Assembly (NCBI GenBank): GCA_938016515.1
Contig: CALILP010000044.1
Location: 1 to 53,124 of the forward strand
Source of the DNA: an uncultured Paracoccaceae bacterium
Lineage (GTDB): Bacteria; Pseudomonadota; Alphaproteobacteria; Rhodobacterales; Rhodobacteraceae
Direction of reading: 5' to 3'
Length of the DNA: 53,124 nt
The first letter of the stretch is position 1. The number at the start of each line of letters is the position of its first letter. Positions 3,990 through 44,743 of this stretch are shown piece after piece. Below the pieces are notes generated by a model. That model was not told the origin of the DNA, made no database searches, and worked only from the letters and a program-made list of their open reading frames with translations. A program made the position numbers and the translations under genes.

Positions 3990-4376
3990 CGAAGCGCGGA
4001 TGGCTGGATGATCGCGGGGTGGCAACGCTTCGAGGAAAGTCCGGACTCCACAAAGCACGGTGCCGGGTAACGCCCGGCGGGGGTAACCCTAGGGAAAGCG
4101 CCACAGAGATGAAACTACCCTCTACACGGGGGAAAAGGTGAAACGGTGGGGTAAGAGCCCACCGCGGACGTGGCAACACGTACGGCACGGCAAGCCCCAC
4201 CGGGAGCAATGCCAAATAGGGACCGCGTGCTGCTTCGGCGGCGGGGATGCTTGACCCCCAGCAGGTCCGGGTTGGCAGCTAAAGGTGCGTTGGTAACAGC
4301 GGGCCTAGATGAATGGTCATCCATCCGAAGGCAACTTCGGGGGACAGAATCCGGCTTACAGGCCATCCGCGCAAAA
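3990..4376 (+). ncRNA. rnpB: RNase P RNA (M1 RNA), class A
   Basis: This is the catalytic RNA of ribonuclease P, which matures tRNA 5' ends. The ends pair as helix P1: GCGCGGATGGC at 3994-4004 with GCCATCCGCGC at 4362-4372, 11 perfect pairs. Conserved landmarks are GAGGAAAGTCCGGACTCC after P3, the GGTAACGCCCGG segment, GAAACGGTGGGGTAAGAG, and the 3' ACAGAATCCGGCTTACAGG. The approximately 385-nt size fits an alphaproteobacterial class A RNA. Open frames crossing this region on either strand are not genes. The exact 5' and 3' ends are estimated. Confidence 0.96.
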
Positions 4377-10146: not shown

Positions 10147-10830
10147 CTACGGGTCGAAGTAGTCTGGGTTAAGCGTCGAGATCGACTCGATCGTGGCGTC
10201 CAAGCGCGTGAGGTGCAGCATACCCGCAGCGACCGCACCGTCAGGGTCCTTCGCGGCGATACAGCTGGAAATCGCCTCATGGTCTTCCAGCAATTGGGCA
10301 ACGCGGTCTTCTTTCGCGATGCTGAGCATGCACAAGCGGTCGACGCTAGCTTTTTCTGCCGAGATGACTTCAAAGGCAAAATCGACCCGTGCGACTTCGC
10401 ACAGTGTTTTGTGAAACTCGTAGTCAAGCGCGCCGAACCGTTCGTAGTCCAGCGCATCTACAACGACCTTTTGTTGCGCCAGGCACATCTTCAGGCTTGC
10501 TTCATCCGCTTCGGTGCAATGCATTGCCGCGCGGCGCAACACTTCGGCTTCGACCGCCGCCCGGACAAAACGAGACTTGGTGATTTCGCGAGCAGAGAAC
10601 CGACGCACTTCGGTGGCGCGCTGCGGGCGAATTAACAGAAGGTCCAGGTTTTCAAGGCGGCTGAACGCATCCCTGACTGGCTGTCGAGAGACGCCGAATT
10701 TCGTCGCAATTTCGGCCTCTGAAATCTTGTCGCCCGGCAGCAACTCTAGGGACACGATCGCCTCGTAAAGATGATCGAACACCACATCCACACTGGTGCG
10801 GCGGTCTTTGAGTTGCGTTGTCTGCGGCAT
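10147..10830 (-). CDS. GntR-family regulator (FadR/FCD type), likely of the alginate operon
   Basis: This is a DNA-binding repressor or activator of about 227 residues. A winged helix-turn-helix covers about residues 10-75 (motifs LPGDKISEAEIATKFGVSR and QPVRDAFSRLE). An FCD effector domain follows, with DYEFHKTL and LEDHEAI supplying likely metal-binding Asp and His residues. The ATG at 10830 is preceded by TTGGAGACC; a GTG nine codons upstream is an alternative but less likely start. It is transcribed divergently from the algS-type operon. The gap between them contains palindromes of the TAGTATACTA kind typical of FadR-subfamily operators. The effector is predicted to be an alginate breakdown product (DEH or KDG), by inference. 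Confidence 0.85.
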   Translation of the reverse strand: MPQTTQLKDRRTSVDVVFDHLYEAIVSLELLPGDKISEAEIATKFGVSRQPVRDAFSRLENLDLLLIRPQRATEVRRFSAREITKSRFVRAAVEAEVLRRAAMHCTEADEASLKMCLAQQKVVVDALDYERFGALDYEFHKTLCEVARVDFAFEVISAEKASVDRLCMLSIAKEDRVAQLLEDHEAISSCIAAKDPDGAVAAGMLHLTRLDATIESISTLNPDYFDP

Positions 10831-11007
10831 AGTCAGGTCTCCAAGCTCAAAAGTCACTTACAGTCGGATCGCGCGAGTTTCCAGTCACTGTGGCTTGCAA
10901 GTTGGCAGGAATAGCCATGTGACGATGGCAATGCCTAACGCGGAACATGTGCGAAGCGGGCTGGGCGCTCCGTAGGGTGTTAAAGCATGTAAATATTAAA
11001 AAAACAA

Positions 11008-11042
11008 TACTAGTATACTAGTAAATCAACTAGTATACCAGA
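11008..11042. promoter_or_regulatory. Paired GntR operator palindromes before algS
   Basis: TACTAGTATACTAGTA at 11008-11023 is a perfect 16-bp palindrome with core TAGTATACTA (11011-11020). A second core, TAGTATACCA, lies at 11031-11040. Their centres are 20 bp apart, about two helical turns, so two dimers could bind the same face. The site lies in the 299-bp gap between the divergent gntR and algS starts, about 90 bases before the algS ATG. The same TAGTATACCA core recurs at 19319-19328. No other gene is seen in the gap. Confidence 0.72.
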
Positions 11043-11129
11043 CGTCAGGGTTGGTGAATCTGATTCGATGTTGGTGGGGAGTCGGCATCGAAGGGTTCGT
11101 CACCGTATCAGACATCTTAGGGAGGGTTT

Positions 11130-12233
11130 ATGTCTGGCGTCAAACTGGAAAGCATCGTCAAGACCTACGGGGCGCTTCAGGTTGTCCATGGGATTGATCT
11201 GGAAGTTCTTGAAAAAGAATTCGTCGTTCTTGTCGGTCCATCAGGTTGCGGTAAATCCACAACTTTGCGGATGATTGCAGGTCTCGAGGAAATCTCTGGC
11301 GGTCAGTTGACGATTGATGGGCGCATGATGAACCGCGTCGCCCCCAAGGACCGTGACGTTGCGATGGTGTTCCAGAACTACGCTCTCTATCCCCATCTAA
11401 ACGTTGCCGAAAACATCGCTTTTGGTCTGCGCATCCGCAAGGAAAGCAATGCCGCCGTCGATGCGGCAGTGGCAGAGGTGTCGGGCATTCTAGGTCTTAC
11501 AGACTATCTAGATCGTCGTCCTGCGGATCTGTCAGGCGGCCAGCGGCAGCGTGTTGCAATGGGCCGCGCCATTGTCCGTCGCCCCAAGGTCTTTTTGTTC
11601 GACGAGCCGCTGTCGAACCTTGATGCCAAACTGCGCACCCAGATGCGCGCTGAAATCAAACGCCTGCACAAGCGGCTTGGTGCCACCAGCATTTACGTAA
11701 CCCACGATCAGGTTGAGGCGATGACCCTCGCGGATCGGATTGTCGTGATGCAAGATGGCCGGATCGAGCAGGTCGGCACCCCAATGGAGCTGTTCCTGAA
11801 CCCTGCGAATTCTTTCGTGGCGGGCTTTCTCGGTGCGCCACCCATGAACCAGATCGAAGCTGTGATCGGCGAGGGGGCAGACGCCCCAATGGCCGAGTTC
11901 GCAGGCGGCAAGATCGCCCTGCCAAAGCTGCCGGGCTTGCAAAACGCGGTCGGTCGGGAGGTCATCGTGGGTATTCGCCCGGAATACGCGCAGATCGCGA
12001 CCGCGCCCGCCGAGGGTGTCGTCGATTGCGACCTTGACCTGGTCGAAACCCTCGGGTCTGAGGCGCTGTTGCACATGTCTATTCACGGCAAGCCGTTTGT
12101 GATCCGCACAGAAACCTTAGGTCAGGTGGCCGAGCTGGAACATGTCACCGGATTTTCTGCGGCCCCTGATCTGATCAAGGTATTCGACGCAAACACAGGC
12201 GTTGCCCTGTCCGGTCAGATGCGGGTCGCATGA
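11130..12233 (+). CDS. algS: Alginate oligosaccharide ABC importer, ATP-binding protein (AlgS/UgpC type)
   Basis: This is the cytoplasmic ATPase subunit of a carbohydrate importer. It has Walker A GPSGCGKST (about residues 37-45), the signature LSGGQRQR, Walker B VFLFDEP and the switch YVTHDQVEA, then a C-terminal TOBE regulatory domain. The 367 residues compare with about 363 for AlgS of Sphingomonas A1. GGGAGGG stands a few bases before the ATG. The stop overlaps the next permease start (ATGA). The substrate is inferred from the neighbours: a PL15 alginate lyase, DEH reductase, KdgF and KdgK. The generic family also serves other sugars, so the symbol is contextual. Confidence 0.85.
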   Translation: MSGVKLESIVKTYGALQVVHGIDLEVLEKEFVVLVGPSGCGKSTTLRMIAGLEEISGGQLTIDGRMMNRVAPKDRDVAMVFQNYALYPHLNVAENIAFGLRIRKESNAAVDAAVAEVSGILGLTDYLDRRPADLSGGQRQRVAMGRAIVRRPKVFLFDEPLSNLDAKLRTQMRAEIKRLHKRLGATSIYVTHDQVEAMTLADRIVVMQDGRIEQVGTPMELFLNPANSFVAGFLGAPPMNQIEAVIGEGADAPMAEFAGGKIALPKLPGLQNAVGREVIVGIRPEYAQIATAPAEGVVDCDLDLVETLGSEALLHMSIHGKPFVIRTETLGQVAELEHVTGFSAAPDLIKVFDANTGVALSGQMRVA

Positions 12234-13219
12234 CGGCATCAGATCAAGATATCACCGACGCCTCGGATGAGGCAGTGGGCAAGAGCGCCCCCCATATCTA
12301 TGCGCCCACGCGCAAAGAACGCATCATCGATCACCTGCGCAACGAATGGCAGATCTATGTGATGCTGATCCCGACAGTCATCTGGCTGCTCGTGTTCCTT
12401 TATAAGCCGATGTACGGACTGCAGATCGCCTTCAAGGACTACAGCATCTTCCGGGGCGTCGCGGCCAGCCCTTGGATCGGACTGGAACACTTCGAAACAC
12501 TGTTTGGAAGCGATCAGTTCCTGCGCGCATTGCGGAACACAATTTATATCAGCCTTTACAGTCTGTTAATCGGCTTTCCTGTCCCGATTTTGCTGGCGTT
12601 GATGTTCAACGAAGTGTTGAACCCCTTGTTTAAGAAGTCCGCGCAAACCATTGTTTATCTTCCGCATTTTATCTCAACTGTTATTATCGCGGGGATTGTC
12701 ATTACGGCGTTCTCACCGTCGGCTGGTATCGTGAACACGGTGATCGGCTGGTTTGGATACGACCCGATCTACTTCCTGACAAAACCAGAATGGTTCCGCC
12801 CAATCTTCATCGGCACAACCATCTGGCAAGAGGCTGGCTTCCAATCCATCGTTTACCTCGCCGCCATCGCGGGAGTGTCACCTACACTGTACGAAAGCGC
12901 GGTGGTGGATGGTGCCAGCCGTTGGCAGATGATGTGGAAGATCACCATTCCGTCGATCCTGCCGACGATCATCATCATGTTGATTATCCGCATCGGGAAC
13001 ATGCTGGAAGTCAGTTTCGAGATGATCATCGTCCTTTACCAGCCAGCCACATACGAAACCGCGGACGTCGTAAACACTTACATCTATCGTCAGGGTTTGC
13101 AGAACGGGCAGTATGATATCGCCGCTGCTGCGGGCCTCTTCAACGCCGTCGTCGCCTTTGTTCTGGTGATGGCCGCCAACACAATCAGCAAGCGCTATTC
13201 GCGCACATCGCTGTGGTAG
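12230..13219 (+). CDS. algM1: Alginate oligosaccharide ABC importer, permease 1 (AlgM1/LplB type)
   Basis: This is an inner-membrane permease subunit of 329 residues; AlgM1 is about 324. A hydrophilic N-terminal segment (about 45 residues) precedes WQIYVMLIPTVIWLLVFLY, the first of six membrane helices. The EAA loop that contacts the ATPase is visible as YESAVVDGASRWQMMWKITIP. The YKPMYGLQIAFKDYSIFRG segment is typical of the LplB-like group. It is coupled to algS by a 4-base overlap and lies 12 bases before algM2. It ends in TAG, showing that TAG works as a stop in this genome. Confidence 0.85.
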   Translation: MTASDQDITDASDEAVGKSAPHIYAPTRKERIIDHLRNEWQIYVMLIPTVIWLLVFLYKPMYGLQIAFKDYSIFRGVAASPWIGLEHFETLFGSDQFLRALRNTIYISLYSLLIGFPVPILLALMFNEVLNPLFKKSAQTIVYLPHFISTVIIAGIVITAFSPSAGIVNTVIGWFGYDPIYFLTKPEWFRPIFIGTTIWQEAGFQSIVYLAAIAGVSPTLYESAVVDGASRWQMMWKITIPSILPTIIIMLIIRIGNMLEVSFEMIIVLYQPATYETADVVNTYIYRQGLQNGQYDIAAAAGLFNAVVAFVLVMAANTISKRYSRTSLW

Positions 13220-13231
13220 GGGGCTGACGCA

Positions 13232-14113
13232 ATGGCAAACATGAACCTCTATTCGCGCGGCGATAAGACCTTTGTCATTATCAACATGGTGCTGATCGGG
13301 ATCTTCACGCTGTCGACGCTGTACCCGTTCATCTACATCACAGCCCTGTCGTTCAGTTCTGGCTTTGCGGCCACAGCGGGCAAGGTCGTGCTGACGCCGG
13401 TGGAGCGCACCGCAGAGGCCTACAACTACATCCTGTCCGACCGGATGTTCTGGGTCAGCTACGGCAACACGTTTATCTACACTATCGGCGGCACGCTAAT
13501 GTCGCTCGCCTTCCTGATTCCCGGCGCGTATGCGCTGTCGCGGCCGCAGCTATACGGCCGCAGGTTCTGGAACCTGATGGTGGCCTTCACCATGTGGTTC
13601 AACGCAGGCCTGATCCCGTTCTTTCTGAATATGCGCGACCTTGGGCTGCTTGACAGCTACTTCGGGATCATCATTGGCTTTGCGGTGAATGGCTTCAACC
13701 TGATCCTGCTCCGCAACTTCTTTGAAGGAGTCCCAAGGTCCTTTGAAGAAGCGGCGCGGATGGACGGGGCGAACGATTTTCAGGTGCTGTGGAAGGTCTA
13801 TGTGCCCCTTGCCAAACCGGCCATCGCAACGGTCGCGTTGTTTTGCATGGTGTCGCGCTGGAACGGGTTCTTCTGGGCGATGGTGCTTTTGCAGGATCAG
13901 GACAAGATCCCACTGCAGGTCTATCTGCGCCACACAATCGCAACCCTGTCAGACGATCCGGAGTTCACAGCCACGCAGCTGAACGCCAGTTACTCGTTTG
14001 AGACCGTCTCAGCCGCAATCATCGTCTGTTCGATTATCCCGGTCCTGATCATCTATCCGTTCATCCAAAAGTACTTTGAGAAAGGTATCTTGATGGGCGG
14101 CGTCAAAGAATAA
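13232..14113 (+). CDS. algM2: Alginate oligosaccharide ABC importer, permease 2 (AlgM2/LplC type)
   Basis: This is the second inner-membrane permease; its 293 residues equal the size I recall for AlgM2. It has about six membrane helices, starting with VIINMVLIGIFTLSTLYPF. The EAA loop is FEEAARMDGANDFQVLWKVYVP. The C-terminal FIQKYFEKGILMGGVKE is characteristic of this carbohydrate permease subgroup. It follows algM1 by 12 bases and precedes the binding-protein gene by 25 bases. It should pair with AlgM1 to form the channel. Confidence 0.85.
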   Translation: MANMNLYSRGDKTFVIINMVLIGIFTLSTLYPFIYITALSFSSGFAATAGKVVLTPVERTAEAYNYILSDRMFWVSYGNTFIYTIGGTLMSLAFLIPGAYALSRPQLYGRRFWNLMVAFTMWFNAGLIPFFLNMRDLGLLDSYFGIIIGFAVNGFNLILLRNFFEGVPRSFEEAARMDGANDFQVLWKVYVPLAKPAIATVALFCMVSRWNGFFWAMVLLQDQDKIPLQVYLRHTIATLSDDPEFTATQLNASYSFETVSAAIIVCSIIPVLIIYPFIQKYFEKGILMGGVKE

Positions 14114-14138
14114 GAACGACCGCATTAGGGAGGAAAAA

Positions 14139-15701
14139 ATGCGTAAACTAACCATGCTATCAGCCATTTTGGCGAGTACCGCCATGACCATGCCCGCCTT
14201 TGCAGATGGGCACCTGCGGATTGTGGAGGAACCGCTGGAACTGACCATCCAGATGAACCATGCACGCTACCCGAACTACGACGAAAACTGGCCGGTTGAA
14301 CAAGCTGCCCGCGCCATGACAGGTATCCACCTGATCGACGACACAGTTGGTGCCAACATGCGCACGGACGAAAACACCGGTAAGACCGAAGCGTTGAACC
14401 TGATGCTTGCAGCTGGCGTGATCCCCGACATCGTCGGCTCCAGCCGTCTGAAAGACTTTGTGAACCAGTACGGGCCGGAAGGTGCTTTCTACCCACTCAA
14501 CGATCTGATCGCAGAGCATGCGCCGAATATGGCCGCCTACTTTGCCGAGCGGCCCGAAATTGCGGCTGCGATCTCTGCCGCTGACGGCAACATGTACTAT
14601 ATTCCGTACCTGCCCGACGGCAAATATGGCCGGGCCTATTTCATCCGCTACGACTGGCTTGATGCCCTTGGACTGCCTGTCCCGGAGACTGTCGAAGAGG
14701 TCGAAGCGACCCTGCGTGCCTTCAAGAATGACGATCCAAACGGCAACGGTTTGGCAGATGAAGTTCCATATTTTGCGCGTCAATGGCCAGAGCTGATCCG
14801 CCTTGTCACGCTGTGGGATGGTCGGTCATCAGGGTCTGATACCTATCACGACTTCTACGTCGATGAGGGGCAGATCCAACACCCTTATGCCGGTGAAGGC
14901 TACCGCGAAGGCATCAAGAACCTTGCGCGCTGGTACGCAGAAGGCTTGATCGACGTCGAAGTTTTCACGCGTGGCAGTTCTGCGCGTGAATTCCTGCTGT
15001 CCGAAAACCTCGGCGGGATGACCCACGACTGGTTTGCCTCGACCTCTGGCTACAACACATCTTTGGCCGACAGGATCGACGGATTTGCGTTTAAGGCCTT
15101 TGCGCCACCGGCCTCTGTCTCTGGTGTCCGCATGGAAGAGCACCGCCGCATACCGATCAAACCGGACGGCTGGGCAATCGGTGCCACGAACGAGCATCCG
15201 ATTGAGACCATCAAGTACTTCGACTTCTGGTTCACCGAAGAAGGCCGTCGTTTGGCCAACTTTGGCGTCGAAGGCGAGCAGTATACGATGGTTGATGGCG
15301 CACCGAAGTTCACGGAAGAATTCCTGACCAACGGCGAGCCGGTAAACAACCAGCTTTATGCAATTGGGTCCCAACTGCAGGCCCGTGGTTACTTCCAGAA
15401 CTACGAGTACGAAAAGCAGTGGTCGAACGAATTCGCCCTCGAAGGCATCGCGCTTTATGATGAAGGCGACTATCTGATCGACCAATTCCTGGGTGTCGCA
15501 TTCAACGCAGAAGAGCAGCGGGTCTATGACCGTTACTGGTCTTCCATCCGCGACTACATGCTGGAACGTCAGCAGGGTTGGATCCTTGGCAACGGCGACG
15601 TCGAAGCAGATTGGGATGCCTACATCGAAACGCTGAACGAGATGGGCCTTCAGGACGTATTGGACGTCATGAACTCTGCTTACGCCCGCCAATACGGCTA
15701 A
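14139..15701 (+). CDS. algQ: Alginate oligosaccharide-binding protein (AlgQ type)
   Basis: This periplasmic solute-binding protein delivers oligosaccharide to the AlgM1-AlgM2-AlgS importer. GGGAGG precedes the ATG. A signal peptide ends near PAFADG (about 23 residues), and the whole protein is 520 residues. A calcium-loop motif DPNGNGLADE starts at Asp199, with Asn201, Asn203, Asp207 and Glu208. It matches the EF-hand-like site known in Sphingomonas AlgQ2 (Asp179-Glu188 as I recall). This is strong evidence for the AlgQ subgroup within the LipO-like binding proteins. A hairpin follows the gene, which may keep its mRNA more abundant than the enzymes downstream. Confidence 0.87.
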   Translation: MRKLTMLSAILASTAMTMPAFADGHLRIVEEPLELTIQMNHARYPNYDENWPVEQAARAMTGIHLIDDTVGANMRTDENTGKTEALNLMLAAGVIPDIVGSSRLKDFVNQYGPEGAFYPLNDLIAEHAPNMAAYFAERPEIAAAISAADGNMYYIPYLPDGKYGRAYFIRYDWLDALGLPVPETVEEVEATLRAFKNDDPNGNGLADEVPYFARQWPELIRLVTLWDGRSSGSDTYHDFYVDEGQIQHPYAGEGYREGIKNLARWYAEGLIDVEVFTRGSSAREFLLSENLGGMTHDWFASTSGYNTSLADRIDGFAFKAFAPPASVSGVRMEEHRRIPIKPDGWAIGATNEHPIETIKYFDFWFTEEGRRLANFGVEGEQYTMVDGAPKFTEEFLTNGEPVNNQLYAIGSQLQARGYFQNYEYEKQWSNEFALEGIALYDEGDYLIDQFLGVAFNAEEQRVYDRYWSSIRDYMLERQQGWILGNGDVEADWDAYIETLNEMGLQDVLDVMNSAYARQYG

Positions 15702-15714
15702 GCGGCAAGACACT

Positions 15715-15741
15715 GGGTGTGGCCTGATCCGGGCCGCACCC
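15715..15741 (+). promoter_or_regulatory. Intercistronic hairpin after the binding-protein gene
   Basis: GGGTGTGGCC at 15715-15724 pairs with GGCCGCACCC at 15732-15741 (10 bp, one G-T pair) around a 7-base loop. No T-run follows, so it is probably not a full terminator. Such hairpins after binding-protein genes often protect the upstream mRNA from 3' decay. The role here is inferred. Confidence 0.5.
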
Positions 15742-15768
15742 ATCACGACAGTATTCGAAAGCAGCCTC

Positions 15769-18093
15769 ATGCCAAGCCAAGCACTTCCCGCTCTTGACGA
15801 GCCTCAAACCGGGCGTCTGACAATCCAATACGGCCCCAGCGATGGTGCCGCAGTGATCGAAAACCCGCCTCGTTTCACATGGCTGCCGGTGATCGAAGAG
15901 GAAGCGCACTATGTGCTGCGCATATCGCAGAGCGCGAAATACCCGCCGAAATCGACATATGATTTTGCCAATATCCCCCTGAATTTCTTTACCCCGGACG
16001 TCGTTTTACCTACGGGCGACTATGTCTGGTCCTACGCCGTGTGCGACGCCAATGGTCAGCCGACAACCGCATGGAGCAGCGACCGCGCGTTTACGGTCGC
16101 CCCCGAATTGCCCGAGACACCTTTAACAGAGCGTGCAACACGTCTGAGTAAGGCCACCCGCGCGCATCCTCGATTGTGGCTGACAACAGACCGGCTGGAG
16201 GCTTTTCGCGCGCAGGTCGATGCAAATCCAGAGCATTGCACATGGTCCACGTTCTTTGAAAAATCCGTCCTTCCTTGGATGGACCGGGATATCTTGCCGG
16301 AACCTGTTGGCTACCCCAACCACACGCGTGTCGCCGCAGTCTGGCGCCAGACCTACATTGACTGTCAGGAACTGCTTTATGCGATCCGCCACCTCGCCAT
16401 CGGTGGGCAGGTCACGCAGGATCCTAAGATGCTGGAACGCGCCAAGGAATGGTTGCTGAGTGCCGCGGCATGGAACCCAATCGGCACCACATCCCGAAGC
16501 TACACTGACGAATGGGCCTTCCGGGTGAATGTGGCACTGGCTTGGGGTTACGACTGGTTGCACGACCAGTTGACCGAAGAAGAACGGGCGACCGTACGCA
16601 CCGCACTTTTGGCGCGTACCCGCGAGACGGCGGATCACATCATCCAGAACGCGAAAATTCACCTCTTTCCCTTCGACAGCCACGCGGTTCGGGCGGTCTC
16701 TGCCGTACTGATCCCGGCCTCCATCGCTTTGCTGGATGACGCGGAAGAAGCGGAAGACTGGCTGCATTACTCCATCGAGTTCCTTTTCACCGTCTACTCG
16801 CCTTGGGGCGACGCGGAAGGCGGCTGGGCCGAAGGGCCGCACTATTGGATGACCGGCATGGCCTATCTGATCGACGCGGCGAACCTGCTGAAAAGCTACA
16901 CAGGTATCAATGTCTACGACCGCCCGTTCTTCCAACGGACGGGGGATTTCCCGCTTTACACCAAAGCCCCAGATACCTGCCGTGCCACCTTTGGCGACGA
17001 CAGCACTATGGGTGATCTGCCGTCGGTCAAGATCGGCTACAACCTGCGCCAATTCGCAGGCGTCACCGGCAACGGCGCGTACCAGTGGTACTACGACGAG
17101 ATCAAACGGACGAATCCTGGCACTGAGATGGCATTCTACAACTGGGGCTGGTGGGACTTCAATTTCGACGAGCTGGCCTATCAGACAGACTTCCCGATGA
17201 TTGAAGCCACCCCGCCCACCGATGACGATCAGCTGCGCTGGTTCAAAGACACTGGCTGGGTCGCGATCCAGCACCGGATGCAAGACCCGGACAACCACAT
17301 CCAGTTTGTGATGAAGTCCAGCCCCTTTGGGTCCATCAGCCACAGCCACGGCGACCAGAACGCCTTTTGTCTGGCAGGTTTTGGCGAAGATTTAGCCATT
17401 CAGTCCGGTTATTACGTCGCGTTCAACAGCACGATGCACCAAAACTGGCGCAGGCAGACGCGGTCAAAGAACGCGATCCTGATTAACGGCAAGGGGCAAT
17501 ACGCAGGCAAGGACAAACCGCAGGCGATGAAGGCCAAAGGTGACATCCTAACTGCGGAAGATCGCGGCGACCATATCTTCATCCAAGGTGACGCAACCGC
17601 AGCCTACCAGTCTTTGTCGCCCGAGGTCACCTCTGTCCAGCGCGACGTCCATTTCGTCAACAACAGCTATTTCGTCATCGTGGACAACATCGACGCAGAT
17701 ACACCGGTCGAGATCGACTGGCTGTTCCACGCTAACGCGCCGATGACTTTGGGGGACACGACCTTTCGCTACGCAGGCGAAAAAGCTGGGTTCTACGGTC
17801 AGTTCCTGTGGTCCGAAGCCGGGGCGCCAAAATTGACCCAAGAAACCGGTTTTCCTGATGTGGACCCCGTCGACTACGAGGGCCTGTCGGTCAGCACCTG
17901 CCTGCACGCCACATTCCCAAAGGCCATTCGCCACCGGATCGCTACGCTTGTCGTGCCTTATCCACTTTCGGCGCCGCGCCGGATCTTCAGCTTCTTGGAT
18001 GATCAAGGCTACGACTGCGACCTCTATTTCACCGACGCCGACGACCGCAGTTTCAAAGTGGTGGTCCCGAAAACATTTGATATCGGCCGCTGA
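15769..18093 (+). CDS. Exo-type oligoalginate lyase, PL15 (Atu3025-like), cytoplasmic
   Basis: This lyase is predicted to release unsaturated monouronate from imported alginate oligomers. It has 774 residues; Atu3025 of Agrobacterium has about 776. There is no signal peptide, as expected for a cytoplasmic enzyme fed by an ABC importer. The order is an N-terminal beta domain (to about 110), an (alpha/alpha) toroid (about 115-430) and C-terminal heparinase II/III beta domains. Arg193, His305, Tyr359, Trp461 and His525 sit a constant six positions before the residues I recall as active-site Arg199, His311, Tyr365, Trp467 and His531 of Atu3025. That constant offset is the main evidence. PL17 or a heparinase with another uronate substrate is the alternative. 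It lies between algQ and the DEH reductase. Confidence 0.88.
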   Translation: MPSQALPALDEPQTGRLTIQYGPSDGAAVIENPPRFTWLPVIEEEAHYVLRISQSAKYPPKSTYDFANIPLNFFTPDVVLPTGDYVWSYAVCDANGQPTTAWSSDRAFTVAPELPETPLTERATRLSKATRAHPRLWLTTDRLEAFRAQVDANPEHCTWSTFFEKSVLPWMDRDILPEPVGYPNHTRVAAVWRQTYIDCQELLYAIRHLAIGGQVTQDPKMLERAKEWLLSAAAWNPIGTTSRSYTDEWAFRVNVALAWGYDWLHDQLTEEERATVRTALLARTRETADHIIQNAKIHLFPFDSHAVRAVSAVLIPASIALLDDAEEAEDWLHYSIEFLFTVYSPWGDAEGGWAEGPHYWMTGMAYLIDAANLLKSYTGINVYDRPFFQRTGDFPLYTKAPDTCRATFGDDSTMGDLPSVKIGYNLRQFAGVTGNGAYQWYYDEIKRTNPGTEMAFYNWGWWDFNFDELAYQTDFPMIEATPPTDDDQLRWFKDTGWVAIQHRMQDPDNHIQFVMKSSPFGSISHSHGDQNAFCLAGFGEDLAIQSGYYVAFNSTMHQNWRRQTRSKNAILINGKGQYAGKDKPQAMKAKGDILTAEDRGDHIFIQGDATAAYQSLSPEVTSVQRDVHFVNNSYFVIVDNIDADTPVEIDWLFHANAPMTLGDTTFRYAGEKAGFYGQFLWSEAGAPKLTQETGFPDVDPVDYEGLSVSTCLHATFPKAIRHRIATLVVPYPLSAPRRIFSFLDDQGYDCDLYFTDADDRSFKVVVPKTFDIGR

Positions 18094-18116
18094 GCGGCTT
18101 CAAGAAAGGACGACGA

Positions 18117-18860
18117 ATGAAACTACAGGGCAAGACAGCCATCGTGACCGGCGGCGGACGCGACATTGGACGGGCCTGCGCGCTGCGCCTTGCGGCCGAA
18201 GGCGCAAACGTGGCGATCAACTACTTCGCCAGCAGCGATGGGGCAGACAGTGCGGTCGCCGAGATCACAGCGAACGGTGGCAAAGCCTTTGCCCGGCAAG
18301 GCGACCTCAGCTGTTCCGCAGGCGTCGATGCCTTGGTCAACAAGACCGTTGCGGAATTCGGCGGCGTTGATGTTCTGGTGAACAATTCAGGCGGTCTGAT
18401 TGCGCGCAAAACGATCTCAGATATGTCACTGGAACACTGGACAGCCGTGATGGATCTGAACTTGACCAGCACATTCCTGATGGTCAAAGCCTGCCTTGCA
18501 CACATGACGTCCGGGACCATCGTGAACCTTGCCAGCCAAGCAGGCAGGGACGGTGGCGGTCCGGGCTCTGTGGCTTATGCAACGTCCAAAGGCGCGGTGA
18601 TGACGATGACACGGGGCCTTGCCAAGGAACTGGGGCCAAACATCCGGGTTAATGCGTTGTGCCCCGGCATGATCGACACGGACTTCCATAACATCCACAC
18701 CAAGCCCGAAGTGCGGACCATGGTCGAGAACGCAGCCCCCGTGAAACGGCAGGGTACACCAGAGGATATCGCGAACCTTGTGGCGTTTCTGGCCACTGAT
18801 GACAGCGGGTTTATGACTGGGACAAATGTCGACATCAACGGCGGGATGCTGTTCAGCTAA
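18117..18860 (+). CDS. SDR oxidoreductase, probable DEH reductase
   Basis: This short-chain dehydrogenase/reductase is predicted to reduce 4-deoxy-L-erythro-5-hexoseulose uronate (DEH) to 2-keto-3-deoxygluconate. The cofactor motif is TGGGRDIGRA (residues 11-20). The catalytic set is Asn90, Ser140, Tyr154 and Lys158. The 247 residues are near the usual size. The basic Arg in the glycine loop could favour NADPH, but cofactor choice is not decided by sequence alone. It follows the PL15 gene by 24 bases, like the lyase-reductase pair of Agrobacterium. Without this context it would be called a generic 3-oxoacyl-ACP-reductase-like SDR. Confidence 0.8.
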   Translation: MKLQGKTAIVTGGGRDIGRACALRLAAEGANVAINYFASSDGADSAVAEITANGGKAFARQGDLSCSAGVDALVNKTVAEFGGVDVLVNNSGGLIARKTISDMSLEHWTAVMDLNLTSTFLMVKACLAHMTSGTIVNLASQAGRDGGGPGSVAYATSKGAVMTMTRGLAKELGPNIRVNALCPGMIDTDFHNIHTKPEVRTMVENAAPVKRQGTPEDIANLVAFLATDDSGFMTGTNVDINGGMLFS

Positions 18861-18896
18861 GCGACTGCGTGTGGGTCATCAAACCCGCACGTATCT

Positions 18897-19208
18897 TCAC
18901 AAGAAGTCGTCGCGCCGGGGGGTGAAACAGTCGATCAAACGGCCCGGTTCAAGGCACACGCAGCCATGCACGGCGTTGGACGGAATGACAAAGCTATCGC
19001 CCGGTCCTACTTCGGTCTCTTCACCAGCAACCGAAAACCGAAACCGGCCGCTTTCGACAAATGTCGATTGAACGTGGGGATGGTTGTGCAACGCACCCTC
19101 AGCCCCTTCTGCCCCAAACGAGAATGCAACGACCATTAGGTCTGCGTGGTCTGCAAGCACTTGGCGGGTGACGTTTTCGCCGGTGTCCACAACGGGATAG
19201 TCTGACAT
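18897..19208 (-). CDS. kdgF: KdgF-type cupin, uronate-linearising enzyme
   Basis: KdgF speeds ring opening of 4,5-unsaturated monouronates to the linear keto sugar (DEH from alginate, DKI from pectin). This is a single cupin domain of 103 residues. Metal-ligand candidates are His41, His43, Gln47 and His81 in GALHNHPHVQSTFVESG and NAVHGCVCLEPGRLID. The C-terminal FTPRRDDFL is a KdgF signature. The ATG at 19208 follows AAGGAGA; the open frame extends 23 codons upstream without a better site. It converges on the SDR gene and diverges from kdgK, sharing an operator-bearing gap with it. Confidence 0.85.
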   Translation of the reverse strand: MSDYPVVDTGENVTRQVLADHADLMVVAFSFGAEGAEGALHNHPHVQSTFVESGRFRFSVAGEETEVGPGDSFVIPSNAVHGCVCLEPGRLIDCFTPRRDDFL

Positions 19209-19309
19209 TGATTGGGTCTCCTTGGTGCGTCCTGTGCCCTGTTTGCCGGGGCTGGTTTCGGGTATGTCACCGCACATCAGGATCGGCGGTTGTCGATACG
19301 TTAATACCG

Positions 19310-19329
19310 CTGGTATGATAGTATACCAG
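19310..19329. promoter_or_regulatory. GntR-type operator between kdgF and kdgK
   Basis: CTGGTAT (19310-19316) and ATACCAG (19323-19329) form an inverted repeat. The 10-mer TAGTATACCA at 19319-19328 is identical to the second core before algS (11031-11040). It ends 26 bases before the kdgK ATG and about 100 bases before the kdgF start, so one site could control both. This places kdgF and kdgK in the same regulon as the importer operon. Confidence 0.68.
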
Positions 19330-19354
19330 TTTATTCGAGGAAAGCGCCTTTACC

Positions 19355-20311
19355 ATGTCTGCACCAAATTCACCGGCCGCTGGCCGTCTGCCAACTGACC
19401 GGCCGCTCAAGTTTGTGGCGATTGGGGAATGCATGGTTGAGATGGCCCCTGCGGGTGAGGTCGGTCAGTTTGCGATGGGTTTTGCGGGCGATACGTTTAA
19501 CACGATCTGGTATCTGAAGCGGCTGTGTCCTGACTGGCAGGCGCAGTATATTACGCGTGTCGGGACCGACGCGGTGTCCGACGACATGCTGGCCATGATG
19601 GCCGAGGCTGGGATCGACACGGGCCATGTCGTGCAATCGGCAGATCGGTCAGTGGGCCTCTACCTGATTTCGTTGATGAACGGCGAGCGCAGCTTTTCTT
19701 ACTGGCGCGACCGGTCCGCAGCCCGGCAATTGGCCGCAGATCGCGCGGATCTGGACGTCGCTTTGGATGGTGCCGACCTGATCTACTTTTCGGGTATCAC
19801 AATGGCGGTTTTAGAGGGCGAGGGGCGGTCCACTTTGCTGGCCGCCATCGCACAGGCGCGGGCAAACGGGGCAACAATTGCCTTCGACAGCAATTTGCGT
19901 CCGCGCTTATGGGCATCGACCGTTGATATGTGTGCTGCCGTCATGGACGCCGCGTCGGTCAGCGATATCGTTTTGCCCTCTTACGACGACGAAGTGCTGT
20001 ACTTCGGCGATACCGCGCCGCAAGACACCCTAGAGCGGTACCGCAAAGCAGGTGCAGGCACCGTCATCGTCAAAAACGGAGAGGGCAGCGTTCTGTTCGC
20101 TCATGGCGCGGAAAGCGGATCGGTCACCCCGCAACCAGCCAAAGACATTCGCGACACGACAGCCGCAGGCGACAGCTTTAACGCAGGCATTTTTGCGGGT
20201 CTCGCCCAAACCGGCGATATGAGGAAGGCGATCACGCTGGCATCCGATATCGCTGGGCAAGTCATTGGGCAGCGCGGCGCGCTGGTCCCGGTCAAACAGT
20301 CAGCGGCTTAG
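19355..20311 (+). CDS. kdgK: 2-dehydro-3-deoxygluconokinase
   Basis: KdgK phosphorylates 2-keto-3-deoxygluconate (KDG) to KDPG for the Entner-Doudoroff aldolase. It is a PfkB-family kinase of 318 residues. The N-terminal motif is GECMVEMAP, the FAGDTFNTIWYLKRL segment binds sugar, and the catalytic base is Asp273 in DTTAAGDSFNAG. It completes the predicted route from alginate oligomer to KDPG. KDPG aldolase (eda) is not in the window. The stop overlaps the stop of the convergent hydratase gene by 4 bases. Confidence 0.9.
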   Translation: MSAPNSPAAGRLPTDRPLKFVAIGECMVEMAPAGEVGQFAMGFAGDTFNTIWYLKRLCPDWQAQYITRVGTDAVSDDMLAMMAEAGIDTGHVVQSADRSVGLYLISLMNGERSFSYWRDRSAARQLAADRADLDVALDGADLIYFSGITMAVLEGEGRSTLLAAIAQARANGATIAFDSNLRPRLWASTVDMCAAVMDAASVSDIVLPSYDDEVLYFGDTAPQDTLERYRKAGAGTVIVKNGEGSVLFAHGAESGSVTPQPAKDIRDTTAAGDSFNAGIFAGLAQTGDMRKAITLASDIAGQVIGQRGALVPVKQSAA

Positions 20312-21093
20312 CGGCCTTTCCAAACAGGATCGCGTTTTTCGGCGAATGCCTTTGCGCCCTCCAGTTGATCTTCGGAGGTATAAAGGGTCTCGACCGTCGG
20401 AAATTGGCTGCGGGTGATCCGGTTCATGGCGTCCTGAAACTTCATGTTTTCGGCCTCGCGCACAACTTCCTTGATCGCAGCCATCACTAGCGGTGGGCCG
20501 CTTTCCAGCAACCGTGCAAGATCCCAAACAGTGTCCAGCAATCGATCTTGCGACACGACCTCTCGCAACAAGCCCCAGCGCAGTGCTTCATCCGCATCGA
20601 ACCAACGTCCTGTCAGCAATAGGTCCATCGCAACGTGATACGGAATGCGTTTTGGCAGCTTGACTGACGCCGCATCAGCCACAGTCCCAGATCGAATTTC
20701 GGGCAAGGCAAAGCTGGCGTTTTCCGATGCCACAATCAGATCGCAGCTGAGCGCCAATTCCAGCCCGCCACCACAGCAAATGCCGTTCACGGCAGCGATC
20801 ACTGGCTTGTTCAGGGCGGGCAACTCTTGCAAGCCCCCAAAGCCCCCGACGCCGTAATCTCCATCGACGGCATCGCCGTCAGCGGCGGCTTTCAAGTCCC
20901 ATCCGGGACAGAAGAACTTGTCACCCTCCGCACGCATGATCGCCACGCGCAGGCTGTCGTCGTCCCGAAAATCGCGAAACGTCTCGCCCATGATCCGGCT
21001 CGTCGCGAGGTCAATCGCATTCGCCTTGGGCCGGTCGAGCGTGACCTCCAGAATGCCCCCTTCACGGCGGGTTTTGATCGGGCTGTCAGTCAT
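20308..21093 (-). CDS. Enoyl-CoA hydratase/isomerase, CaiD-like (carnitinyl-CoA dehydratase)
   Basis: This crotonase-fold enzyme is predicted to interconvert crotonobetainyl-CoA and L-carnitinyl-CoA. The 261-residue protein has CaiD-type motifs: FCPGWDLKAAADG, the oxyanion loop GICCGGGLELALSCDL with a Glu, and PEIRSGTVADAASVKLPKRIP. Its start overlaps the stop of the CoA-ligase gene (ATGA), making it third in a three-gene operon. The divergent neighbours are carnitine genes, which supports the substrate. Another short acyl-CoA is possible. Confidence 0.75.
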   Translation of the reverse strand: MTDSPIKTRREGGILEVTLDRPKANAIDLATSRIMGETFRDFRDDDSLRVAIMRAEGDKFFCPGWDLKAAADGDAVDGDYGVGGFGGLQELPALNKPVIAAVNGICCGGGLELALSCDLIVASENASFALPEIRSGTVADAASVKLPKRIPYHVAMDLLLTGRWFDADEALRWGLLREVVSQDRLLDTVWDLARLLESGPPLVMAAIKEVVREAENMKFQDAMNRITRSQFPTVETLYTSEDQLEGAKAFAEKRDPVWKGR

Positions 21094-23087
21094 GAGGTTT
21101 CCTTTCGGATCAGGGCGTCCACAGCGATAGCGCCAGAGTGGCAGACCATCAAAGGGTTGATCTCAATCTCTGCGATTTCAGGGTTGTTGGCCATGGCGGA
21201 TTGGAGCTTCAGGACAATATCAACCACGGTTGCGACATCGGCCAGCGGTCCGCCGCGATGTCCATTCAACAAAGGCGCGAGCCTAAGCGCATGTATCGCC
21301 GCATGCACCTGTGCCGCAGTGACCGGCAACACCAATGTTTGTGTGTCCGCCAAGATCTCTGCCTGCACGCCGCCAAAGCCGACCATTAGGGTTGCGCCGT
21401 AAACCGGATCTCGGACAAGACCCACGATGATTTCGGCAACTGACCCGGTCACCATCTCTTCTGCAAGATAACCGGAAGCATCAGGCATCGCGGGCACTGC
21501 ACCCAGATGTTGGATGTTCAAATGCACAGCGCCTGCTTCGGTTTTATGGGCAAAGCCTAGGCCTTTGACGGCAAGTGGTCGGGCGAGCCCTTCTGCACTT
21601 TCGGCAAGCGCGTCCAAGGTCACCGCCGAAACGCCGCGTGGAACACGCACGCCCCAATCGGACAGCAGGGCTTTCCCCGCGACCTCATCCAGAACGTGCG
21701 TCTCACCAAGTTTTGAACGCGACCACGGTCGCCACCCGTCACTTGCGGGAACGCGCGCAGCCGCAACCGCAGCAAGCGCTGTTTCAATCCCTTGCAGTGG
21801 GACGACACCTGCCCGCATCATGGCAATCGCGCGCTGCTCATCAATGTTTTCAGGCAGTGATGCGACGGCAAATGCAGGCTTGCTGGTGGCTTTGCCAGCC
21901 AAGGCGATCGCTTCTAACGCGGGCTCAAACGATGCTGGATCGCAAAGATCGCTGCGGGGCGGGTCGATGATGTAAAGTCCCGCGTCATAGGGGCGCAACA
22001 TCTCGGCAAAGACTGATGTCGTCTTATCCAGATCGCCCCAAATAAACGTGTGGTAATCCAAGGGGTTCGACAGGGTAACCAACGGTCCCAGCACGGAACG
22101 CAGGCTGTCTTCCTGCACGGTGGAAAGTGGGGGGAATGCAAGCGGTGTATCGTCGGCCAGATCCGCAACCAGCCCTGCCTCGCCGCCTGAACAAGACAAC
22201 GCGCACACCTGCCGCCCAGTTTGGGGGCCGTGAACATGTAAGATCTTTAACGTCTCGATCAATTCGGACAACGTCGCAACCGACCCAATCCCGGCCTGTT
22301 GTAAGAACGCCTGCGACGCGGCATGGGTGCCGGACATCGCGGCAGTGTGGGAAAGTGCGGCAGAGGCCCCGGCCTCTGACTTGCCGGACTTTAGCACGAC
22401 AATACCCTTACCCATCCCACGGGCCGCATCGGCCAAACGCGCCAAGCTTGCCGGGTCATCAAACCCTTCGGCATAGACGCCCAAAGCGGTGACGCGGTCG
22501 TCCTGCAGCATGGCCTCCGCCAGTGCGACCAAACCGGTTTGTGCTGCATTGCCCAGACAACCGACATAGGCCAGGGGCAAGCCGCGTTTTTGCATCGTCA
22601 GATTGATCGCGATGTTCGAGCTTTGCGACAGGATCGCAACGCCAGTGTCGCATCGCCGCCCACCGTGCTGATCCGGCCAGATCACCGCCCCGTCCAACAT
22701 ATTCAGAAGGCCATAGCAGTTCGGACCAAGGATCGGCATGTCTCTGGCGGCACTCACCAGTTCGGCCTGCAAGTCGGTGTCACCGGTTTCCGCCCACCCG
22801 CTTGCAAAACAGATCGCACCCCCTGCACCCATGTCCGAAAGCGTCTTGATCACATCAAGGGTCGCATGACGGTTCACACCAACAAAGGTGGCATCCGGCG
22901 CACGCGGCAAATCCTGCAAAGAGCGATAGCAAGCCCACCCGCCAATGTTTGCTCTTGTCGGATGTACCGGCCAGACGTCGCCTTCAAATCCGATCTTTTC
23001 GCATTGCGCGACGACGTTTTCGGCCCAGCCGGAGCCCAGAACCGCAATCGATTTTGGCCGCAGCAGTCGCGACAGATCGCGTGTCAT
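21090..23087 (-). CDS. Acyl-CoA synthetase, ADP-forming type (acetate-CoA ligase family)
   Basis: This is a 665-residue fusion with the layout of NDP-forming acyl-CoA synthetases. A CoA-binding Rossmann domain opens with LSRLLRPKSIAVLG. A succinyl-CoA-ligase-like domain carries a likely phospho-His region in ALSHTAAMSGTHAA. A C-terminal ATP-grasp domain includes GLGFAHKTEAGAVHL and EIEINPLMV. It probably activates the acid substrate of the operon, for example gamma-butyrobetaine, crotonobetaine or carnitine; this is inferred from context. The ATG overlaps the dehydrogenase stop by one base (TGATG). An upstream extension of 23 codons is open but lies inside the preceding gene. Confidence 0.78.
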   Translation of the reverse strand: MTRDLSRLLRPKSIAVLGSGWAENVVAQCEKIGFEGDVWPVHPTRANIGGWACYRSLQDLPRAPDATFVGVNRHATLDVIKTLSDMGAGGAICFASGWAETGDTDLQAELVSAARDMPILGPNCYGLLNMLDGAVIWPDQHGGRRCDTGVAILSQSSNIAINLTMQKRGLPLAYVGCLGNAAQTGLVALAEAMLQDDRVTALGVYAEGFDDPASLARLADAARGMGKGIVVLKSGKSEAGASAALSHTAAMSGTHAASQAFLQQAGIGSVATLSELIETLKILHVHGPQTGRQVCALSCSGGEAGLVADLADDTPLAFPPLSTVQEDSLRSVLGPLVTLSNPLDYHTFIWGDLDKTTSVFAEMLRPYDAGLYIIDPPRSDLCDPASFEPALEAIALAGKATSKPAFAVASLPENIDEQRAIAMMRAGVVPLQGIETALAAVAAARVPASDGWRPWSRSKLGETHVLDEVAGKALLSDWGVRVPRGVSAVTLDALAESAEGLARPLAVKGLGFAHKTEAGAVHLNIQHLGAVPAMPDASGYLAEEMVTGSVAEIIVGLVRDPVYGATLMVGFGGVQAEILADTQTLVLPVTAAQVHAAIHALRLAPLLNGHRGGPLADVATVVDIVLKLQSAMANNPEIAEIEINPLMVCHSGAIAVDALIRKETS

Positions 23088-24247
23088 CAAGCGCCCAAAG
23101 GCCGCAATAAGTCGCGGCTGATGATATGGCGTTGGATTTCGGAGGTCCCGTCCCAAATCCGTTCCACCCGTGCGTCGCGCCAGAATCGTTCGATGGGAAA
23201 GTCATCCATCAGGCCCATACCGCCGAAAATCTGCAAGGTGGTGTCGGTAACACGGGCTAAGGCTTCTGACGCATAAAGCTTGGCAGAGGCGATTTCGCGG
23301 TTCGCGGGCAACCCTTCATCAAGCCGCCAGGCAGCGGCCAGCGTCAGCCAATCTGCGGCATCGATCTCTGTGATCATATCGGCGATCTGAAAGCTGATGC
23401 CCTGAAATTTGCCAATCTTCTGGCCGAATTGTTCACGTTCGGCCGCGTAGTTCAGGGCATAGTCAAAGCACCGGCGGGCCCGGCCCACGCTAAAGGCGGC
23501 AACTGTGATGCGGGTTGCGTAAAGCCACTCATTCATCACTGCAAACCCACCATCGACCTCGCCAAGCACTTGGGCATCGGGCAGGCGACAGTCATCGAAT
23601 GTCAGGATATAGTTTTTGTAGCCCTTATGGCTGACCGAGGTGTAGCCTTCGCGCACCTCAAATCCCGGATGTCCGCGATCGACCAAAAACGTGGTGATCC
23701 GTTTCTTGGGGCCTTTGGGTGTTTCATCTTCGCCGGTTGCGATGAAGACAATAAAGAAATCAGCGTGTTCCGCGCCAGAGATAAAGTGCTTTGAGCCATT
23801 CACGACCCAATCGCCGCCATTGCGAACCGCCTGACATTTCATGCCCCGCACGTCCGAGCCGGCGTCGGGCTCGGTCATCGCCAAAGCATCCATCCGCTCG
23901 CCCCGCACCGCAGGCAGCAAGTAGCGGTCGCGCTGTTCGTCATTACAGGCCATCAGGATATTCTGTGGGCGGCCAAAGAAGTGGGTCAGGGCCATCGACC
24001 CGCGGCCCAATTCGCGTTCCACCAGCGTAAAGTCCACATGGCTTAGCCCCGCGCCGCCGACGCTTTCGGGAAAATTACAGGCGTAGAACCCCAGATCGAT
24101 GCATTTGCGTTTGATATCATCGCCAATCTCGCGGGGAACATGGCCTGTCTTCTCAACCTTAGCCTCGTGAGGATAGATCTCTTTCTCGACAAAGCTGCGG
24201 ACCGTATCGACGATCATTTCTTGTTCTTGGCTCAGGCCGAAATGCAT
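23087..24247 (-). CDS. Acyl-CoA dehydrogenase family protein (CaiA/butyrobetainyl-CoA dehydrogenase candidate)
   Basis: This FAD-dependent acyl-CoA dehydrogenase has about 386 residues. Hallmarks are LAMTEPDAGSDVRGMKCQA (FAD/substrate loop), YAAEREQFGQKIGKFQGISF and the C-terminal RIWDGTSEIQRHIISRDLL. The ATG at 24247 follows GCGGAGAC; the frame is open for 69 more codons but runs into the divergent gene's promoter. It is first in the operon with a CoA ligase and a CaiD-like hydratase. The three together could oxidise gamma-butyrobetainyl-CoA to crotonobetainyl-CoA and hydrate it. Substrate assignment is contextual. Confidence 0.77.
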   Translation of the reverse strand: MHFGLSQEQEMIVDTVRSFVEKEIYPHEAKVEKTGHVPREIGDDIKRKCIDLGFYACNFPESVGGAGLSHVDFTLVERELGRGSMALTHFFGRPQNILMACNDEQRDRYLLPAVRGERMDALAMTEPDAGSDVRGMKCQAVRNGGDWVVNGSKHFISGAEHADFFIVFIATGEDETPKGPKKRITTFLVDRGHPGFEVREGYTSVSHKGYKNYILTFDDCRLPDAQVLGEVDGGFAVMNEWLYATRITVAAFSVGRARRCFDYALNYAAEREQFGQKIGKFQGISFQIADMITEIDAADWLTLAAAWRLDEGLPANREIASAKLYASEALARVTDTTLQIFGGMGLMDDFPIERFWRDARVERIWDGTSEIQRHIISRDLLRPLGA

Positions 24248-24317
24248 GATGTGTCTCCGCTGTGCAGGGGTTGCGTCATCAGACCGGTTTACTAGGGTAG
24301 GTGTCGTGCGTGATTGG

Positions 24318-25271
24318 ATGGCGGCTGTGCAAAGTTCGACAAAAACCGACAGATGGGGGGCATCGTTTGATGTCTTGTTGTTTCCATCGTTTTCGAACCA
24401 CTGTCTTGCGAACATGGTAGAGCCGTTGCGGGCGGCGAATACATTGGCGCGCAAAGACTTCTACAGTTGGCGCTTTTTGACTGTTGATGGACAGCATGTC
24501 GAAAGTTCAAGTGGGATGCAGGTGGCCCCTCATGCAGCACTGATGCATGGGGCGGGGGACAGTCTGGTCGTCATGCCATCGTATGGATTTCGGGACTTAG
24601 ATCGCGGTGCAGTGCCGGGTTTGATGCGACAAGCCGCTCGGCGCTACGACTGCCTCATTGGGATGGATACCGGCAGTTGGCTGTTGGCGCGCGCTGGATT
24701 GCTTGACGATCGCCGCGCCACGATCCACTGGGAGGAACTGACCGGCTTTGCCGAGGCCTTTCCGCAGGTTGATGTGCTGCGCGAACGATATGTGTTGGAC
24801 GATGATCGGATCACATGTTCCGGTGCGATGGCCGCGTTCGATCTGGTCTTGCACCTGATCAGTGTACAGCATGGGCCGCTTTTGGCGGTTGAAGTCGCAC
24901 AGCTTTTCATGACCCGGGATTCCGCGCGATCTCATGCCAGCAGCTTGCGCAGTGGCAATCGGATCGTGGATCGCGCACTGACCTTGATGCAGGAAAACCT
25001 GGAAAGCCCACTGCTGATTGGACAGGTTGCCCGGCACCTTGGCATGACGCAAAAGTCGCTTGAGACGCGGATGCAGGCAGAGATGCAATGCACACCACAG
25101 CAGGTTTATCAGCGGCTGCGGCTTAACCTTGCGCGTAAACTTGTCTTGGACACCGACTTGTCTATCAGCGAAATCGCCTTGCGCAGTGGGTATGAAAACG
25201 CAAGTGCGATGACGCGGGCCTACAAAACATGGTTCGGGCAAACCCCGCGCACGATGCGCGCGAACTTGTAA
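24318..25271 (+). CDS. cdhR: GlxA/AraC-family regulator, likely carnitine regulator (CdhR type)
   Basis: This two-domain regulator has an N-terminal DJ-1/PfpI-like (GATase1) domain (about residues 15-195) and a C-terminal AraC helix-turn-helix pair (about 215-315). Clear motifs are SPLLIGQVARHLGMTQKSLET and STSISEIALRSGYENASAMTRA-like helices (here DLSISEIALRSGY). This is the architecture of CdhR, the carnitine-responsive activator of Pseudomonas. It lies directly upstream of the carnitine genes and is divergent from the CoA operon. The start is uncertain: ATG 24318 or GTG 24306, neither with a strong ribosome-binding site. Two 15-bp direct repeats just after its stop are the likely binding site. 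Confidence 0.8.
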   Translation: MAAVQSSTKTDRWGASFDVLLFPSFSNHCLANMVEPLRAANTLARKDFYSWRFLTVDGQHVESSSGMQVAPHAALMHGAGDSLVVMPSYGFRDLDRGAVPGLMRQAARRYDCLIGMDTGSWLLARAGLLDDRRATIHWEELTGFAEAFPQVDVLRERYVLDDDRITCSGAMAAFDLVLHLISVQHGPLLAVEVAQLFMTRDSARSHASSLRSGNRIVDRALTLMQENLESPLLIGQVARHLGMTQKSLETRMQAEMQCTPQQVYQRLRLNLARKLVLDTDLSISEIALRSGYENASAMTRAYKTWFGQTPRTMRANL

Positions 25272-42996: not shown

Positions 42997-43042
42997 CCCC
43001 TTCATTTCGCAAATAACAACTCCCCCCGGAGGGGGCCGACTT

Positions 43043-44494: not shown

Positions 44495-44614
44495 AGTGCG
44501 GTGGTTTGATCCAATTGTGCGCTTCCGCGCATTTTTGATATTGCAAGACTGCGTGATCGTGCCATCGCTGGTGTGGCGTTGTGTGCAGGCGGTTTTTTCA
44601 TCTGCTGAGAGGTG

Positions 44615-44715
44615 CTTGAGGGATCATGGTGATCCTCAAGTCACCGCGTCCATGGTTTTGCGAGTCGGACCGGCCTCAAGGACAAGCCGCTGCGCGGGGC
44701 CTGCGGCCTCCTTGA
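44615..44715. promoter_or_regulatory. Two hairpins between betB and betA
   Basis: Hairpin 1: CTTGAGGGATCA (44615-44626) with TGATCCTCAAG (44630-44640), one bulged G, loop TGG. Hairpin 2: TCAAGGA (44676-44682) with TCCTTGA (44709-44715), enclosing GCCGC/GCGGC. The 249-bp gap has no gene. The hairpins may tune betA expression relative to betB or mark an internal promoter region. Confidence 0.55.
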
Positions 44716-44743
44716 CCCCGCCCCGAATCGCGGGTGTGTGCTG

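Follow-up and report, generated by a model that had tools for sequence, protein, structure and literature searches.

Does a bacterium that encodes an importer and an exolytic lyase for alginate oligomers cut the polymer itself or live on what others release, and how would such genes be controlled? The question is raised by a gene cluster at positions 10147-20311 of contig CALILP010000044.1 (C44 here) from an uncultured Paracoccaceae bacterium of the family Rhodobacteraceae (assembly GCA_938016515.1; 3.43 Mb, 227 contigs, 81.4% complete), the whole 53,124 nucleotides of which were analysed and are called the window. We read the cluster, with a probability of roughly 0.88, as a substrate-induced oligo-alginate scavenging unit under a divergent GntR repressor; gene families, residues, synteny and operator distribution are direct observations, and the range of substrates, the activities of the enzymes, the repression and its effector are inferred. 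Profile searches recovered every gene that a first-pass annotation had named in this interval. Comparisons were made with 80 named loci, the best-scoring among 217 relatives (contig ends cut some of the 80), and with 56 genomes of the genus, which are included among 146 genomes searched; the polysaccharide lyase family 15 (PL15) gene is present in 15 of the 56, our own included.

The new part of the cluster is a tandem predicted operator, CTRGTATACYAG, occurring twice, 20 bp apart, at algS. Upstream of the gene for an AlgS-like ABC importer ATPase (11130-12233, forward strand) lie the perfect palindrome CTAGTATACTAG at 11010-11021 and, 20 bp from it, CTAGTATACCAG at 11030-11041, and a one-mismatch variant, ATAGTATACCAG, is found at 19318-19329 between kdgF and kdgK (none of the three is assigned a strand). 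Divergent from algS, on the reverse strand at 10147-10857, is a gene for an FCD-type GntR transcription regulator, in which both the winged helix-turn-helix domain (Pfam GntR, 58.6 bits) and the FCD domain (73.2 bits) score above their cut-offs. Two bases of the variant site are shared with a -10-like hexamer, TATGAT (19314-19319), an overlap that would suit a repressor; the hexamer alone is not above chance. Promoter-like sites numbered 6 against 4.7 expected and terminator-like sites 16 against 10.7, one of the latter being the operator pair itself, and we draw no claim from either count. A search of the open-licence literature returned no regulator or operator for this cluster, which does not show the operator to be unpublished, and among the papers listed the string TAGTATAC was counted only in one, on Bacillus CcpA.

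The predicted operator and the regulator gene occur together. Counts upstream of algS use 76 of the 80 named loci, the remainder having no algS or no 330 bp before it. The core GTATAC lies within those 330 bp in 43 of the 76, against 5.2 expected from shuffles, and when one mismatch to CTRGTATACYAG is allowed, a site precedes algS in 51/56 loci with a divergent GntR ortholog and 2/20 without one (Fisher p 4e-11, a value limited by the relatedness, and hence non-independence, of the loci). L089, one of the two exceptions in having the site without a divergent GntR, carries a 63% identical GntR homolog downstream of PL15 in the same locus. Two or more sites are present in 34 of the 53 site-bearing loci, and in 32 of these 34 the last two are spaced by exactly 20 bp, or about two turns of the helix; in an alignment anchored solely on the last site, the second stands out as a conserved block among flanking columns that are otherwise mostly near random. 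Within the genus the exact site occurs in 13/15 genomes with PL15 versus 2/41 without (p 5e-9); by coordinates, it sits at algS in all 11 genomes with a divergent GntR and in 0/3 without (G031, G038, G043), G023 not being assessable since its contig ends within algS.

The same motif recurs at other genes, among them those of PL7 alginate lyases. Of the nineteen PL7 places considered, 5 belong to the genus and 14 to named genomes, and one of the nineteen is a fragment; a sub-threshold PF08787 row at G159:C5, 24 bits, was excluded and two G154:C18 rows were merged. In 9 places the open frame is preceded by a site at a distance of 20-90 bp, comprising 5/5 in the genus and 4/14 elsewhere. As background, of 16000 450-bp windows drawn at random from the 80 PL15 loci, 419 (2.6%) contained a site. 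Grouped after the sites had been seen, the site-bearing places are 9/13 in genomes with a site at algS or kdgF (G148 being counted by its kdgF site) versus 0/6 in genomes without (p 0.01). There are 16 exact genus sites away from algS: by our own reading, nine lie next to genes for alginate or uronates (PL7, kdgK, uxaC, kduI, ManD, TRAP, and a KdgK/UxuA/reductase run) and two precede an oxidoreductase gene. In the named relatives, sites also adjoin kdgF/kdgK and TRAP genes.

What the cluster acts on is indicated by its lyase and its binding protein. The product of the PL15 gene (15769-18093, forward strand) aligns with Atu3025 (PDB 3a0o) end to end, over residues 8-770 (763 residues), at 1075 bits, which upholds the earlier family assignment; the next family, heparinase II/III-like 6lja, reaches 76 bits. 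The annotation had also proposed a constant six-residue offset to Atu3025, which stands beyond approximately residue 97 and is five before it. Residues R193, H305, Y359, W461 and H525 align with identical Atu3025 residues 199, 311, 365, 467 and 531, and all five are invariant in 81/81 sequences (the window plus the 80 named loci). We take R199 and W467 to be active-site positions, as that annotation did. The catalytic centre, given as H311, Y365 and H531 of Atu3025 in an excerpt of PMC8286568, is matched by H305, Y359 and H525. The enzyme would release unsaturated monouronate from alginate oligomers, and it is probably cytoplasmic, because a signal peptide is not obvious by eye. Two PL15 clusters among the relatives, L060 (G068) and L059 (G077), look decayed, with lyase matches in several pieces and, in L060, partial importer genes.

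The periplasmic binding protein (14139-15701, forward strand) is nearest to AlgQ1 (3vlu, 536 bits) and AlgQ2 (4tqu, 523 bits), the next solved family, 5xs8/5gub, scoring 357 bits; the predicted AlgQ2-like calcium loop (DPNGNG) is present as DPNGNGLADE, compared with DPNGNGKADE in AlgQ1. Its importer partners are the AlgS-like ATPase (367 aa; Pfam ABC_tran and OB_MalK; generic UgpC subfamily at 473 bits, above the cut-off of 432) and two permeases on the forward strand assigned by Pfam BPD_transp_1 and synteny with relatives, AlgM1-like (12230-13219, 329 aa) and AlgM2-like (13232-14113, 293 aa).

Downstream, the short-chain dehydrogenase/reductase (SDR; 18117-18860, forward strand) named by the first-pass annotation matches 4yqy (378 bits) and 3edm (285 bits). 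Assignment to the A1-R type was rejected, since the matches to the Sphingomonas reductases A1-R/A1-R', 4tkl (130 bits) and 4w7i (128 bits), fall well below these, and the label of reductase for 4-deoxy-L-erythro-5-hexoseulose uronate (DEH) therefore rests on the conserved operon position; we presume that function. Eighteen of the 80 named loci carry a 3-hydroxyisobutyrate-dehydrogenase-like gene, which in L132 (12717-13598) is flanked by the SDR and a KdgF of lower identity; it may encode another DEH reductase, one of the A-type named in the excerpted text of PMC7874173. KdgF (18897-19208, reverse strand) is, as had been proposed, a cupin homologous to the solved KdgF 5fq0, at 68 bits, and to 7zyb, which is labelled Cupin, at 78 bits; its likely start is the ATG at 19208 after GGAG, in a reading frame that opens at 19277. 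Inspection by eye finds the motifs HNHPHVQ and DCFTPRRDD, which may supply the metal-binding His/Gln and the C-terminal Asp/Phe/Arg. The kinase (19355-20311, forward strand) belongs to the PfkB family (166 bits) and scores 242 bits against the KdgK-specific NF052444, below its cut-off of 400, so that we call it KdgK-like, a 2-keto-3-deoxygluconate (KDG) kinase, by context.

Taken as a pathway, these genes would work as follows. At rest the FCD-type GntR repressor would occupy the two CTRGTATACYAG palindromes of the algS promoter together with the weaker third site that lies between kdgF and kdgK. In the periplasm AlgQ would bind short chains of alginate, which AlgM1M2S2 would import at the expense of ATP, after which cytoplasmic PL15 would cut off unsaturated monouronates and KdgF would accelerate their conversion to DEH. 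The SDR would reduce DEH to KDG and KdgK would phosphorylate KDG to 2-keto-3-deoxy-6-phosphogluconate (KDPG), with an aldolase encoded elsewhere completing the Entner-Doudoroff route. Trace uptake and PL15 action would yield a pathway intermediate that releases GntR, whereupon importer, lyase, SDR, KdgF and KdgK would rise together. The annotation had noted no KDPG aldolase; none is present on the window's contig, and a genome search finds two PF01081-family genes elsewhere (C168 and C92), so this absence leaves no gap in the pathway.

The scavenging part of this reading depends on endolyases. A search of the 81.4% complete assembly, as the annotation had suggested, gave no match to PF08787 (PL7), PF05426 (PL5/PL17) or PF14592 (PL6), PL14, PL31, PL32, PL34, PL36, PL39 and porins lying outside the search. 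The proposal that the cell takes up oligomers made by others is thus supported within its own assembly for these three domains, and is qualified by the missing part of the genome and by the other alginate lyase families and porins; it is the best reading because all three domains are absent, yet aldolase genes are present elsewhere. An alternative is that the organism is a full alginate degrader whose endolyase gene is missing from the assembly or belongs to a family outside the search. Some relatives lend this weight: PF08787 occurs in 3/15 genus genomes with PL15 versus 0/41 without (Fisher p 0.016), PF08787 or PF05426 in 5/15, and PF08787 in 12 of the 45 named PL15 genomes searched (from the 80 loci). 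PF05426 is in 14/56 genus genomes and is not enriched with PL15 (4/15 with PL15 versus 10/41 without). We nonetheless consider a full degrader unlikely, as 12 of the 15 PL15 genomes of the genus have no PF08787, 11 of those 12 being at least 95% complete, and 10/15 have neither family, making endolyase absence the usual state in the genus; among the named carriers, too, the majority (33/45) are without PL7, consistent with oligomer feeding. It is very improbable that the substrate is a uronate polymer other than alginate (ulvan, pectin or a heparin-like one). PL15 does share the Hepar_II_III_C domain, and the excerpted text of PMC8778563 has KdgF serving pectin as well; against this stand the wide margins by which PL15 and AlgQ prefer Atu3025 and AlgQ1/AlgQ2 over the next families. 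Independent evidence for alginate comes from the operator that the unit has in common with PL7 alginate lyase genes, and the oligo-alginate assignment is in this way supported both by the matches of PL15, AlgQ and KdgF and by the operator.

A third alternative concerns the palindromes, which might be the site of a regulator other than the neighbouring GntR, or be kept by descent only. GTATAC-core palindromes are common to several FCD GntR proteins, and the genome itself encodes a GntR paralog, 50% identical to the window regulator; a two-mismatch operator separates it from a divergent TRAP DctP gene (L158:2682-4677; G000:C20), and such a GntR/TRAP DctP pair has an exact site in relative L177. 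The loci compared are also related, so that their counts are not independent. We think both variants quite improbable: the site goes with the divergent GntR, with a homolog at hand even in L089, both sites stand out from flanking intergenic columns that are mostly near random, and sites recur at unlinked PL7, kdgK and TRAP genes.

Our reading of a GntR-controlled scavenging unit must be tempered by several observations that weigh against it. At algS a site is lacking in five of the 56 loci that have a divergent GntR. There is one mismatch in the kdgF/kdgK site, and since an antisense kdgF is preceded by a site in just 6 of 22 relatives, the kdgF part of the operator case is weaker. Ten of the 19 PL7 genes are without a site, four of them in genomes that carry one at algS, and 5 of the 16 exact genus sites away from algS have no related neighbour gene. 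One of these five is a third perfect palindrome of our own genome (G000:C150:19412-19423; L157:7913-7924), which lies 18 bp ahead of the start codon of a gene for an MsbA-like ABC exporter of 618 aa, and it may be chance. A reversed control pattern has 2 matches per strand in our genome and at least one in 46/56 genus genomes; with two mismatches it has 139 and 130 matches in our genome versus 8 and 6 for the operator. The excess probably reflects the rarity of CTAG in bacteria, for which the control is not matched, so it is a poor control and provides no proper background. Both KdgK and SDR fall below specific curated cut-offs, and incompleteness of the genome means that an endolyase could have been missed.

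Much of the unit is familiar. The annotation considered the combination of an ABC alginate importer with KdgF to be of interest for this group, which the counts do not support; a KdgF-like match occurs in 61/80 named loci (33 with one of at least 60% identity, 29 with one below, 1 with both; counted within the fetched stretch), and the full core (AlgS-M1-M2-Q-PL15-SDR, each above 55% identity) in 71/80, so a rare gene combination was rejected. Neither the operon nor the inference of dependence on others is new. The operon is in print (PMC4866713) for Falsirhodobacter sp. alg1, whose alyFRB operon (L078) shares the order divergent GntR, ABC ATPase, two permeases, binding protein, PL15, SDR, with a PL15 76% identical to ours. 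The same paper reports that AlyFRB converts alginate to DEH, places a KdgK-like gene on another contig, and describes the Atu3025 cluster of Agrobacterium fabrum, whose PL15 is the end-to-end match noted above, as conserved in gene order with alyFRB. Unlike the window genome, Falsirhodobacter sp. alg1 also has a PL7 endolyase, AlyFRA (a PF08787 match), and the fetched L078 locus holds no KdgF match. Yoonia strain SS1-5, a different strain presumed to be of the same genus, is without PL5 and PL7, and its authors suggest that it may rely on cooperation with other bacteria (excerpt of PMC11482539, which does not list PL15 as lacking). The pit/ABC system of Sphingomonas sp. A1 (AlgS, AlgM1, AlgM2, AlgQ1/Q2, A1-IV) shares the binding protein, importer type and cytoplasmic exolyase; that strain takes in polymer and has three endolyases (excerpt of PMC8778563), whereas the PF05426/PF08787 endolyases typical of the pit system were not found in our incomplete assembly. 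A regulator gene, algO, is mentioned for it in the excerpt of PMC8286568. The kind of control we propose is already known, since AusR of Zobellia galactanivorans is a GntR-family repressor of alginate genes that binds one to three operator copies (excerpts of PMC7874173 and PMC8286568); the likeness is in type of control only, AusR being flavobacterial, and we claim no sequence relation between the operators.

Several neighbouring features were recorded alongside. In 39/80 named loci the PL15 cluster has a member of one MATE exporter family nearby (for example L072:1276-2655, adjoining GntR); an ortholog in our own genome was rejected, the best match being 26% identical. Our genome has a second gene with a Hepar_II_III_C domain, on C117. 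Peroxiredoxin-like genes (AhpC/TSA, shown for L190) stand beside sites at L190:3806-4432, L191:4155-4673, L188:4060-4578 and L181:5590-6108. Elsewhere in the window, on the strand opposite kdgK, 20308-24454 holds a crotonobetainyl-CoA-hydratase-like gene (312 bits, cut-off 500) followed by acyl-CoA ligase and acyl-CoA dehydrogenase reading frames identified by eye, which suggests a carnitine-type pathway. At 42632-46402 an aldehyde dehydrogenase gene adjoins one for a GMC oxidoreductase, a pair that we presume recalls betB/betA of betaine synthesis. Outside the cluster, at 3996-4374, lies a bacterial class A RNase P RNA (292.8 bits), the only RNA family found in the Rfam search.

A wider arrangement can be proposed tentatively, and we would put it as possible but doubtful: the cluster may be the core of a scattered Rhodobacteraceae alginate/uronate regulon under FCD-GntR control via CTRGTATACYAG, including PL7, kdgF/kdgK, uxaC/uxuA/kduI, ManD, a TRAP monouronate importer, a peroxiredoxin-like gene and, speculatively, a DEH-venting exporter. 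For that regulon the predicted operator provides a simple sequence marker. PL15 clusters with this ABC importer are common in marine Rhodobacteraceae and the majority of the carriers searched are without a PL7 endolyase, which fits a guild living on oligomers freed by other bacteria.

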